A DNA stretch of 64,000 nucleotides from contig JADBKN010000046.1 in assembly GCA_014896375.1 (NCBI GenBank), positions 1 to 64,000 on the forward strand. The letters run 5' to 3'. The position numbers and the translations under genes are program-made. Below are positions 13,751 to 19,095 of this stretch, piece after piece; position 1 is the first letter of the stretch; each line of letters opens with the position of its first letter. The notes under the pieces were generated by a model, which did no database searches, was not told the origin of the DNA, and was given only the letters and a program-made list of their open reading frames with translations. Origin of the DNA: Bacillota bacterium (lineage in GTDB: Bacteria; Bacillota; Sulfobacillia; RBS10-35; Bu92).

Positions 13751-14071
13751 ATGGCGCACGATGTCACTTCGGCCACCTTCGCGGAAGTCGTCGAGCGCAG
13801 CGAGGTGCCGGTGCTCGTCGACTTCTGGGCCCCTTGGTGCGCCCCCTGCCGCCAGCTCGCTCCCATTCTAGAGCGTGCGGCGGCCTCTTGGGGCGATTCC
13901 ATCAAGGTCGTCAAGGTGAACGTGGACGAGAATCCTGACCTCGCGACCCGCTTCGGCATCATGGGCATCCCCACCATGGTCCTCTTCAAGGACGGCAAGG
14001 AGGTGGGCCGGCTCACGGGCGTCCGCCCGGAGGACCGGCTCAAGGCGGAGGTCGCGAAGCTGCTCGGCTGA
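13751..14071 (+). CDS. trxA: thioredoxin
   Basis: A 106-residue cytoplasmic dithiol protein. The WCAPC active site is at about residue 30 (VLVDFWAPWCAPCRQLAP), and the cis-Pro loop is GIMGIPTMVLFKDG. ATG 13751 is chosen because a GAGGAGG site lies 10 bases upstream and all domain signals start just after it. An intrinsic terminator follows. In a bacillithiol producer it would act alongside that thiol system. Confidence 0.95.
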   Translation: MAHDVTSATFAEVVERSEVPVLVDFWAPWCAPCRQLAPILERAAASWGDSIKVVKVNVDENPDLATRFGIMGIPTMVLFKDGKEVGRLTGVRPEDRLKAEVAKLLG

Positions 14072-14138
14072 GCGCTCCCGCCGGCACGAGCACGCTGGGC
14101 CGGCCGCCGTGGTTGGCCGCGTTGGCCGGCCGCCCGTC

Positions 14139-14166
14139 GCCCGCCGCTGCGCCGGCGGGCTTTTTG
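14139..14166 (+). terminator. intrinsic terminator of trxA
   Basis: An 8-bp GC stem (14139-14146 with 14153-14160) is followed by TTTTT (14161-14165). Confidence 0.85.
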
Positions 14167-14217
14167 CGTGTCCGCGCAGCCGCTGGATCTGCGCTGACCC
14201 AGGCTCTAGACCGGTAA

Positions 14218-16077
14218 GTGTGTGGTGAACACGAGCGCGGCCAATGGCGGAAGCCCAAGCCGTGGACGGACGAAGCGGCGGCGGCGCTGGAGAGGCTCTC
14301 GCCGGCCGAGCTGGCCGAACGCGCGCGGCGCGCGGAGCGAGCCGCCGAGGAGCGGCGCGCCCGGGAGCAGGAGGTGCGGGCGCTGCGCCGGGCGTTGGAG
14401 GCGGCGGGCGCGGAGGTCCCTGAGGGGGCGGTCGTGGGCGACGCGACTGCGGGGGTGGACGCGGGCGTCCCGCCCGCCGCGCCCGCCGCCCCTCGCGCCG
14501 CCACCCTCGCGGCGGCCGCCGCGGCCGCGGCCGGCCTCGCCGGCCTCGCCGGCGCCGCCCTCGCGCTCGCCGGCCACAGCTGGGGCTGGGGGCTGGCGGC
14601 CGGCGCCGGCGTCGCGGCCGCGCTGCTCGCGTGGCGGGCGCACGCCGCGGCCGTGGCGGCCGCGGCGGCCGCGGCGCGGGAGGCGGCCCTGGCGGCGGCG
14701 GCAGAGGCGGCGCGGGAGGCGGCCCCGGGCGTTGAGGCCCTGCGCGCCGCCCAAGAGGCGCTGGAGGCCGCGCAAGCGGAAGCCGCCGCGGCGGCGGAGG
14801 CGGTGCGGGAGGCGCTCGGCGGGCTGCCGGTGGCGCCGGCGTTCGCCGAGGCCCCGGATGTCGAGCTGGCGCAGCGGGTGCGCGAGCTTCGCCGCTACTG
14901 GGAGGCGCTGCGCGACCTGCAGGAGGAGGCGGCGGCGCTGCGCCGGGCCCTGCAAGCCCGCGAGGCCGGCGTGCGCGACTGGGCGCGCCGTCTTGGGATG
15001 GTCGAGGGCGTGGAGGACGTCGACGCCCTCGTCCTCGCCCGTCGCCTTGAGGACGCGCTGGACCGCGCCCGGCGCCGCCGGCGGGAGGCGGAGCAGGCGG
15101 CGGACGAGCGGGCGCGGCTGCAGGCCGAACTGCGAGAGCTCGAAGCGCAGCGGGCCGAGACGGTCCGCCAGCGAGACGCCCTGCTGGAGCGGCTCGGCGC
15201 GTTCGGGCCGGACGTCGAGGCGGCGCTCCTTGAGGTGCGCGAGCGGCGCGACGCGTGGCAGCGCGCGCGCTTCCTCGCGGACGCGCTGGAGCGCCGCCCG
15301 GGCGGCCTGCAGGGCGTGCGCCGCGAGGTGCGCGCCGCCCGGGAGGCCGGCGACCTGCCCTGGACGGACGCGGAGCGCGGGCGCGCCGCGGAGGAGGAGC
15401 GCGCGCTGGCGGAGGCGTTGAAGGAGACCGACCGTCGCATCGGCGAGCTCCGCCGTGAGCTGCAGGAGCTGGAGACACGTGAAAAGGCCGCGGATGTGGC
15501 CGGGTGGATCGCGGCGCGCGCGGAGGAACGGGAGGCTTTGCTTCGCCGGCGCGACCGGCTGGCGCTCGCCGCGGCGCTCGTGCGGCTGGGGGCGGAACGC
15601 TTCCGCGAGCGCCACCAGCCCGACATCCTCAAGCGGGCGGGCGAGCACCTCGCGGCCTTCACGGAAGGGCGCTACGACCGCCTGCTCTTCGACGAAGCAC
15701 AGAACGTGGAACTGCCCTCCGGCGCGGAGGAGGCGCGCGTGCCGGGCGCCGGCGCGGCGACGGCGCTCCTCGTCCGGCGCGCCGCGGACGGCGAGCTCAT
15801 CCCCGCCGCGCCGCCCCTCAGCGAGGGGACGCTGCACCAGATTCACCTCGCCCTGCGCCTTGCGTTGGCGGACCACCTGGACGAAGGCGGAGAGCGGCTG
15901 CCGGCCTGCTTCGACGAGACCTTCCTCCACTGGAGCGAGCGCCGCCGGCGCGCGGGACTGCGCCATCTCGCGGCGTGGGCCGCGCGCCGGCAGGTGCTGC
16001 TCTTCACCTGCCACCCGTGGTTCGCCGAGGAGGCGCAAGAAGAAGCGGGAGCCACCGTGCTCCGGCTCCCCGGCTGA
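14218..16077 (+). CDS. YhaN/SbcC-like coiled-coil ATPase lacking the Walker A half
   Basis: A 619-residue frame. Residues about 95-155 form an Ala/Gly/Leu-rich stretch with two membrane-like segments. A long Arg/Glu/Ala coiled coil follows, and the last 170 residues match the C-terminal ATPase half of YhaN/SbcC proteins: the signature-like PLSEGTLHQIHLALRLALAD, Walker B LPACFDETFLHWS and the switch-region VLLFTCHPW. The N-terminal Walker A/P-loop lobe (about 180 residues) is absent. An in-frame TAA directly precedes GTG 14218, and the trxA terminator lies only 52 bases upstream. The gene is either a truncated relic kept open or a protein that pairs with another P-loop protein. The start is uncertain, since no good ribosome site is seen. 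Confidence 0.7.
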   Translation: MCGEHERGQWRKPKPWTDEAAAALERLSPAELAERARRAERAAEERRAREQEVRALRRALEAAGAEVPEGAVVGDATAGVDAGVPPAAPAAPRAATLAAAAAAAAGLAGLAGAALALAGHSWGWGLAAGAGVAAALLAWRAHAAAVAAAAAAAREAALAAAAEAAREAAPGVEALRAAQEALEAAQAEAAAAAEAVREALGGLPVAPAFAEAPDVELAQRVRELRRYWEALRDLQEEAAALRRALQAREAGVRDWARRLGMVEGVEDVDALVLARRLEDALDRARRRRREAEQAADERARLQAELRELEAQRAETVRQRDALLERLGAFGPDVEAALLEVRERRDAWQRARFLADALERRPGGLQGVRREVRAAREAGDLPWTDAERGRAAEEERALAEALKETDRRIGELRRELQELETREKAADVAGWIAARAEEREALLRRRDRLALAAALVRLGAERFRERHQPDILKRAGEHLAAFTEGRYDRLLFDEAQNVELPSGAEEARVPGAGAATALLVRRAADGELIPAAPPLSEGTLHQIHLALRLALADHLDEGGERLPACFDETFLHWSERRRRAGLRHLAAWAARRQVLLFTCHPWFAEEAQEEAGATVLRLPG

Positions 16078-16146: not shown

Positions 16147-17409
16147 TCACTCCCAAGCGGCGAAGAACCGCTTGAGGCGGCGCATGCCCTCCTCGATACG
16201 CTCCATCGATGTCGCGTAGCTGAGCCTCAGCGCGCCGGGGACGCCGAAGCCCTCGCCCGGCACCACGGCCACGCCGGCTTCCACGAGGATCGCCTCGGCC
16301 AGCTCGTCCGTCGTGTGGAAGACGCGCCGGGCGGCGCCGCCCTCACGCGGCGCTGCCGCGCACTCCGCACCCGCCGTCGCCGCTGCACCCGCCCGCTCCC
16401 GGCCGAGGTACGCCCGCACGTCGACGAACACGTAGAACGCCCCCTCCGGCAGCGGCACGAAGAGGCCCGGGATCTCGTTCAGCGCCGCGCACATGGCCCG
16501 GCGGCGCTCGTCGAAGGTGCGCACCATCGCGGCGACCGGCTCGTCCGGGCCGCGCAGGGCGCCGAGCGCCGCCATCTGGCTCACGGAGGAGGCGCCGGAC
16601 GTCAGCTGCGTCTGGATCGTGAGCATGGCCGCCGTGAGGGCGGCGTCCGCGCAGGCGGTGTAGCCGATGCGCCATCCTGTCATGGCGTAGGCCTTCGACA
16701 TGCCGTTGACGACGACCGTGCGCCGGTACGCGTCCTCGCTGAACGTGGCCGGGCTGACGTGGCGCGCGCCGTCGTAGACGAGGCGCTCGTAGATCTCGTC
16801 CGAGATCACCCAGAGGTCGTGCTCCTTCGCGAGGTCCATGAGGGCGCGCAGCTCTGGCTCCGTGTACACGGCGCCGCTCGGGTTGTTGGGGCTGTTGAGG
16901 ACGATCGCCTTCGTCCGCGGCGTGACGGCCGCCGCCACGCGCTCCACACGAGGGTGGTAGCGGTCCTCCGCCTCCGTGGGCACGACGACCGGCCGCGCCC
17001 CCACGAGCTTGACCTGCTCCGGGTAGCTCACCCAGTAGGGCGCGAGGAGGATGACTTCGTCGCCCTCCTCGCAGATGGCGGCGAGCGCCTGGAAGATGGA
17101 TTGCTTCGCGCCGTTCGAGACGACGATGTCCTGCGGCCGGTAGACGAGGCCCTGGTCGCGGCGCAGCTTCTCGCAGATCGCCTGCCGCAGGCGCAGGTCG
17201 CCGGCGGCGGCCGTGTACTTGGTGAAGCCTTCGTCGATGGCCGCCTTGGCGGCCTCATTGGCGGCCGGCACCGAGGGGAAGTCCGGCTCGCCCACGCTGA
17301 AGCTCACGATGTCGTGGCCCGCGGCCACGAGCTCCTTGGTGCGGCTGTCCAGGGAGACGGTCGGGGACGCGCTGATGGTCCTGGCGCGCCAGGAGAGCGG
17401 GCGGGTCAT
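16147..17409 (-). CDS. pyridoxal-phosphate aminotransferase, aspartate (AT-Ib) type
   Basis: A fold-type I aminotransferase of 420 residues. The PLP lysine lies in VVVNGMSKAYAMTGWRIGY (about residue 240), the N-terminal substrate loop is SVGEPDFPSVPAA, and SPNNPSGAVYTEPEL carries the PLP-ring Asn. An Ala/Gly-rich insertion of about 28 residues (around GAAATAGAECAAAPREGG) interrupts the small domain and is not typical of the family. Aspartate aminotransferase is most likely, but alanine or aromatic substrates cannot be excluded. It diverges from the M32 gene, with a 183-base gap. Confidence 0.9.
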   Translation of the reverse strand: MTRPLSWRARTISASPTVSLDSRTKELVAAGHDIVSFSVGEPDFPSVPAANEAAKAAIDEGFTKYTAAAGDLRLRQAICEKLRRDQGLVYRPQDIVVSNGAKQSIFQALAAICEEGDEVILLAPYWVSYPEQVKLVGARPVVVPTEAEDRYHPRVERVAAAVTPRTKAIVLNSPNNPSGAVYTEPELRALMDLAKEHDLWVISDEIYERLVYDGARHVSPATFSEDAYRRTVVVNGMSKAYAMTGWRIGYTACADAALTAAMLTIQTQLTSGASSVSQMAALGALRGPDEPVAAMVRTFDERRRAMCAALNEIPGLFVPLPEGAFYVFVDVRAYLGRERAGAAATAGAECAAAPREGGAARRVFHTTDELAEAILVEAGVAVVPGEGFGVPGALRLSYATSMERIEEGMRRLKRFFAAWE

Positions 17410-17592: not shown

Positions 17593-19095
17593 TTGAACGA
17601 GAAGCTGCAGCGCATGTTGGAACTCTACCGCGAAGTCAGCCACCTCGCGATGGCCGCCGGCCTTTTGGATTGGGACCAGCAGTGCTACATGCCCCCGGGC
17701 GGCGCCGCGCTGCGCGCGGAGCAGCTGGCCACTTTGGCCAAGCTGGCCCACGAGCGCCTCACTTCCCCGGAGATGGGCCAGCTCCTGGATGAGCTCGAGC
17801 CTTGGGCGGCGTCCCTGGACCCCGACTCCTTTGAGGCGAGCGTCGTGCGCGTCGCCCGGCGCGAGTACGACCGCGCCACACGCATCCCGGCGGAGCTGGA
17901 GGCGGAGTTTTCCCGCGCGGCCTCGGCCGGTTTCGCCGCGTGGGCGGAGGCGCGCCAGGCCGGGGACTTCCGCATCTTCGCGCCGAAGCTGGAACGCCTC
18001 GTGCAGCTGACCATCGAGCGCGCAGAGGCGCTGGGCTACGAGGAGCGGCGCTACGACGCGCTCCTCAACCTCTTCGAGCCCGGCAGCCGCACGAGCCAGG
18101 TGCAGGCGCTCTTTCAGCAGCTGAAGGAGGGCCTCGTGCCGCTCGTGCACGCCGTCGCGGAGCGCGTGGACCGCGTGAAGAACGACTTCCTCTTCGGCGG
18201 CTACGATGAGCGCAAGCAGTGGGACTTCGGCGTGCGGCTTCTCAAGGCCATCGGCTTCGACTTCCAACGGGGGCGCCAGGACCGTTCGGAGCACCCCTTC
18301 ACGGTCGGTTTCGGCTCGGGCGATGTGCGCCTCACCACGCGCTTCCAGCCGTATCTCGGGTCGGCGCTCTTCGGCACACTGCACGAGGGGGGCCACGGCC
18401 TGTATGAGCAGGGCATTCCCCCGGAGTTCGCCGGCACCCCGGTGGGCTCCGCCGCCTCCTTCGGCGTGCACGAGTCGCAGTCGCGGCTGTGGGAGAATCT
18501 CGTCGGCCGCTCGCGCGCATTCTGGCGGCATTTCTATCCGGAGCTGCAGGCGCTCTTCCCGGAGCGGCTGGGAGAGGTCGACCTGGACACCTTCTACGCC
18601 GCCATCAACCGCGTGGAGCCGTCCCTCATCCGCGTCGAGGCCGACGAGCTCACGTACAACCTGCACATCTTTTTGCGTTTCGACCTGGAACTGAAGCTGA
18701 TCGAAGGCGACCTCAAGGTGGCCGACCTGCCGGAGGCCTGGCGCGCCGGCATGCGTGAGCTCCTCGGCCGCGCGCCGGAGAACGACCGCGACGGCGTCAT
18801 GCAGGACGTGCACTGGAGCCAGGGCGCCTTCGGCTACTTCCCGTCCTACACGCTGGGCAACGTGCTGTCCGTGCAGCTCTTTGAGAAGGCCAAGGAGGAG
18901 CGGCCGGACATCCCACAGGAGATCGAGCGCGGCGAGTTCGCGGGCCTCCTCGGCTGGATGCGGGAGCGCATCCACCGGCACGGCGGCAAGTTCACCGGCA
19001 CGGAGCTCATCGTGCGGGCGACGGGCCGCGAGGCCGACGCCGCCCCGTATCTGCGCTACCTGCGCGAAAAGTACGAGGAGATCTACGGGCTGTGA
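17593..19095 (+). CDS. M32 family carboxypeptidase (Taq type)
   Basis: A 500-residue zinc carboxypeptidase of thermophiles and Bacilli. The zinc motif is in FGTLHEGGHGLYEQGIP, followed by VHESQSRLWENLVGRS with the third ligand Glu, and the N-terminus shows the family's LLDWDQQCYMPPGG. TTG 17593 has GGGAGAG upstream. It probably removes C-terminal residues from peptides in the cytoplasm. Its stop overlaps the next gene's GTG start by 3 bases. Confidence 0.95.
   Translation: MNEKLQRMLELYREVSHLAMAAGLLDWDQQCYMPPGGAALRAEQLATLAKLAHERLTSPEMGQLLDELEPWAASLDPDSFEASVVRVARREYDRATRIPAELEAEFSRAASAGFAAWAEARQAGDFRIFAPKLERLVQLTIERAEALGYEERRYDALLNLFEPGSRTSQVQALFQQLKEGLVPLVHAVAERVDRVKNDFLFGGYDERKQWDFGVRLLKAIGFDFQRGRQDRSEHPFTVGFGSGDVRLTTRFQPYLGSALFGTLHEGGHGLYEQGIPPEFAGTPVGSAASFGVHESQSRLWENLVGRSRAFWRHFYPELQALFPERLGEVDLDTFYAAINRVEPSLIRVEADELTYNLHIFLRFDLELKLIEGDLKVADLPEAWRAGMRELLGRAPENDRDGVMQDVHWSQGAFGYFPSYTLGNVLSVQLFEKAKEERPDIPQEIERGEFAGLLGWMRERIHRHGGKFTGTELIVRATGREADAAPYLRYLREKYEEIYGL

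Follow-up and report, generated by a model that had tools for sequence, protein, structure and literature searches.

A long open reading frame that carries the motifs of a YhaN/SbcC-type ATPase C-terminus but lacks a Walker A motif raises the question of whether a half-enzyme exists here or whether an ordinary gene has lost its front. The frame lies in a stretch of 64,000 nucleotides from a Bacillota bacterium (contig JADBKN010000046.1, positions 1 to 64,000 of the forward strand; hereafter, the window). ATPases of the YhaN type, whose N-terminal lobe is described by Pfam family PF13514 (AAA_27), pair with an SbcD/YhaO-like nuclease; our literature search, judged by titles, returned no paper title on YhaN with a YhaO/SbcD pair. 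As detailed below, the frame is most likely what is left of a gene truncated recently and does not represent a novel type of half-enzyme. The features on which the argument rests are collected in Table 1.

TABLE 1 Features at and around the junction (positions in the window)
Feature	Position	Strand	Remarks
trxA (thioredoxin), left of the junction	13751..14071	+	Reading frame; homologues in 4 of 4 relatives searched
Terminator-like hairpin behind trxA	14139..14165	+	Stem 14139-14160, then TTTTT
Left end of repeated element, 58 bases including the terminal inverted repeat	14202..14259	+	Source of the TAA, the GTG and the first 14 codons
yhaN-type ATPase gene, 3′ part	14260..16077	+	Coiled coil, membrane-like stretch and C-lobe (signature-like motif, Walker B region, switch); without the Walker A lobe
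Aminotransferase gene (named by eye)	16147..17409	-	Downstream neighbor kept in G001, G004, G007 and G003
M32-type carboxypeptidase gene (named by eye)	17593..19095	+	Next neighbor, kept in G001, G004, G007 and G003

The frame comprises 619 codons on the forward strand (14218 to 16077), begins with GTG, and has a TAA codon immediately 5′ of that GTG. Its homology to YhaN/SbcC-type ATPases, in their C-terminal part, begins at residue 15. An alignment of six homologues shows no variation in the signature-like S-G-T-L-x-Q, in the Walker B-region Asp, or in the T-C-H switch (S521, G523, T524, L525, Q527, D552, T583, C584 and H585, counted from the Pro codon at 14260), and no Walker A motif is found anywhere between 14218 and 16077. 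The original prediction, made from the letters of the window, had described exactly this combination, and the alignment bears it out. Scans of the frame with Pfam and NCBIfam models returned nothing useful. The silence of Pfam is no argument against homology, because the C-terminal part of the corresponding gene in a relative of the same genus (G001) is also without a Pfam match. The prediction had also drawn attention to the 619 open codons. The frame is indeed open, but its length is weak evidence of function and not remarkable, because the DNA is 80% G+C and the antisense frame between 14260 and 16077 is open over 606 codons; moreover, the first 14 residues derive from a repeated element and not from the ATPase.

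Relatives carry the gene at full length. One contig of G001 has an amidase gene, two MFS transporter genes, an sbcD-like nuclease gene (Metallophos, PF00149) and a YhaN-type N-lobe, in that order; the N-lobe, with the Walker A sequence GPNEAGKST and a PF13514 score of 79.8 bits, comes directly after the nuclease gene and stays open to the contig end. A second G001 contig opens with the C-terminal part, which is approximately 80% identical to the window; the genes that lie downstream in the window come next, their order unchanged. We infer that the G001 gene is continuous across the gap between these two contigs. G001 residue ~362 is the counterpart of the window codon at 14260, so that ~361 N-terminal residues are missing in the window. 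The frame is thus orthologous to the C-terminal part of YhaN-type ATPases, with ~80% identity to G001 and downstream genes in common, but it lacks the Walker A lobe (PF13514) and an adjacent sbcD-like gene, and it is shortened in comparison with orthologues at the locus with the same downstream neighbors.

The arrangement around the full-length gene can be read in other genomes as well. In G007, the genes for the MFS transporter, the sbcD-like nuclease, the YhaN-type ATPase, the aminotransferase and the M32-type carboxypeptidase are contiguous. The yhaN-type gene follows the sbcD-like gene as a single frame in G007, G029 and G049. The same holds for G004, whose contig starts within the nuclease gene; the G003 contig stops inside the ATPase gene. 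As to the transporters, G007 has its MFS gene directly before the sbcD-like gene, whereas in G001 a second MFS transporter gene (L036:3238-4512, on G001 contig C83) separates the MFS gene of the block from the sbcD-like gene.

A match to the frame was found in 24 of the 61 genomes searched, its own genome included, and a scan of named genomes yielded at least 525 relatives, the best 80 of which were kept. Among these best 80 of at least 525, a Walker A pattern stands in the same frame in 70, one (L080) falls outside the pattern yet has AKNEGGKST and a strong N-lobe match, and nine have an N-lobe that is incomplete because the contig ends first. All 71 relatives in this best-80 set that are uncut by a contig edge therefore have the P-loop in the same frame. 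A same-strand sbcD-like match accompanies 71 of the best 80, and the nine without one are the same nine at contig edges.

The left edge of the homology coincides with the end of a repeated element. Positions 14205 to 14259 match the left end of the element copy on contig C13 of the same genome (G000) at 98%, with one mismatch in 55 bases, and the two sequences part at 14260. That copy (L005:1323-2037; G000:C13:27322-28036) is the best one. An ORF of the intact element starts with the frame's first 14 residues (14218 to 14259). When intact, the element is 715 bp long and has 25-base terminal inverted repeats at 96%; its right end is missing in the window, where the copy consists of 58 bases only. 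A search of the genome with the frame gave one full match, which is the sole copy, and three weak matches to the element-derived N-terminus. The original prediction was correct that an in-frame stop precedes the GTG, that a terminator lies ~52 bases upstream behind trxA, and that no nuclease gene adjoins the frame, but the stop, a TAA, belongs to the end of the repeated element. No purine-rich ribosome-binding site was found before the GTG, and no sigma-70-like promoter was found at 14040 to 14420. Of the two readings that had been offered, the decayed locus is the one supported: in relatives the gene is full length and follows an sbcD-like gene; here its front is gone, and the cut coincides with where a repeated element ends. 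We consider it highly probable that the frame is the remnant of an ordinary sbcD-yhaN locus that was cut by a recent deletion or rearrangement at this element. It is a truncated gene of an ordinary kind.

A junction at a repeat could also be a product of assembly, with contigs misjoined at the element, so that the trxA neighborhood or, in the extreme, the truncation itself would be a draft artifact. The element is at or near contig ends on C1, C6, C15, C18, C21 and C30, and the 45 bases from 14215 to 14259, which are identical to the C13 copy, could mislead a short-word assembler. Against this, the five other element copies tested have merely 14 to 23 bases exactly in common, the N-lobe and the sbcD-like gene are on no other contig, and no repeat spans the switch from element to gene at 14259/14260, which makes the truncation hard to explain as an artifact. 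We regard such an error as unlikely. A wrong join to trxA is possible, and the truncation is more secure than the trxA neighborhood because no repeat runs across the element-gene switch.

The original prediction had proposed a search elsewhere in the genome for a detached N-terminal lobe and a partner nuclease. Neither turned up in the draft assembly, which has 65 contigs and is 93.5% complete. The G001 N-lobe matched only the window's own overlap. A search with the sbcD-like protein, run without a positive control, gave no match, although this protein does match the loci in G004, G007, G029 and G049. PF13514 gave six weak matches in the assembly, one of them just above the cut-off; four of the six weak P-loop matches were inspected by eye and rejected as candidates, being of the SMC, RecF and ABC-transporter types. 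Contig C19 carries the amidase and MFS genes of the block; next to them is a diverged copy of the element (86% over its main piece), and after that copy comes a different gene. The former block is thus broken, with an element copy at each of its visible edges. Two points count against the remnant account here: in a draft that is ~93% complete the missing parts could be unassembled, and the gene that once stood to the left of the element is not readable from G001, whose contig ends before trxA, inside the gene upstream of it. The trxA stretches fetched from the more distant genomes G003, G004 and G007 contained no yhaN-type match.

Selection on the remnant does not look relaxed. Its dN/dS against G001 is 0.27, above the values of the six other genes measured, which range from 0.09 to 0.20. 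Over the last ~343 codons the value is 0.185, versus 0.227 when the intact pair G003/G007, for which dS is high, is compared over the corresponding part. Polarized changes number 27 in G000 and 28 in the intact copy of G001. Full-length relatives and relaxed selection in this copy had been named together in the original prediction as grounds for rejecting it; the former exist, and the latter is not seen, as would be expected if the cut is recent. The substitution pattern thus shows no sign of relaxed selection and does not by itself establish function: either the cut is recent or the fragment has been kept, and the data fit both. The element remnant differs from its best copy at one base in 55 (95% interval, 0.05 to 9.7%), and the probability that the frame stays stop-free is ~0.6 at 1% neutral divergence and ~0.1 at 5%.

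Some observations favor a functional half-ATPase, that is, an expressed P-loop-less coiled-coil/C-lobe protein acting by itself or together with another SMC-like ATPase. No stop interrupts the frame, its C-lobe motifs are intact and conserved, and its rate equals that of the intact G001 copy, all of which also count against a remnant. This conservation is nonetheless explained by a recent cut, given the stop-free probability at 1% divergence. Searches of the assembly found no YhaN-type N-lobe, and none of the 71 uncut relatives (among the best 80 of at least 525) is split, so that the predicted pairing of a half-ATPase with a separate P-loop protein finds no support; in addition, the GTG is without a ribosome-binding site and stands behind a terminator. 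We therefore judge a working half-ATPase very improbable. It seems just as doubtful that expression begins at the element-derived GTG, or at a start close to it, and that the cell retains the fragment as a stand-alone coiled-coil/C-lobe protein, such as a regulator dimerizing with another SMC-like ATPase. Were the fragment functional, it would be an ABC-type C-lobe at work without its P-loop.

Returning to the remnant of an sbcD-yhaN locus, we propose the following order of events, inferred from the junction and the relatives. The ancestral state would have been a full-length yhaN-type gene directly downstream of an sbcD-like nuclease gene. The repeated element would have arrived upstream of this locus, and a deletion or rearrangement would then have taken most of the element copy, the nuclease gene, and the first ~361 ATPase codons, fusing element base 58 to ATPase codon ~362. 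A product without the P-loop lobe and the nuclease would be expected neither to bind ATP by the usual route nor to form an SbcCD-like complex. The remnant is probably unmade or made at a low level, and its decay may be just starting. On this account, what remains after a cut at a repeated element can be a long, clean open frame that lacks the catalytic half, and at 80% G+C such a remnant may pass for a new half-enzyme if judged by length and openness alone.

The element itself appears to be MITE-like on sequence grounds, with terminal inverted repeats, several copies, and no transposase gene found. The 58 bases before the gene resemble bacterial elements of this kind in that they form an end of a repeat whose termini are 25-base inverted repeats, and differ from them in that the window copy is down to 58 bases and that no PF01610 transposase was found in G000 (4 of 14 control genomes were positive). 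By eye, likely target-site duplications measure 8 bases at C13 and C52 and 9 bases at C47, with none evident at C63. From its inverted repeats the element may be mobilized by an ISL3-type transposase, but the PF01610 search of G000 gave no candidate. An Rfam search of the element gave no match, and its longest ORF has 135 codons. G000 has several copies (20 matching pieces); besides the one on C13 there are copies on C63, C52, C47 and C19 and fragments on C1, C6, C15, C18, C21, C28 and C30. Element matches occur in 2 of the 41 genomes searched, G000 included, the other being one weak end-like match in G001. Within the element are four 27-base palindromic repeats (like GAAATAGGCCAAAGAATTTGGCTTATC), spaced at 51, 62 and 51 bases.
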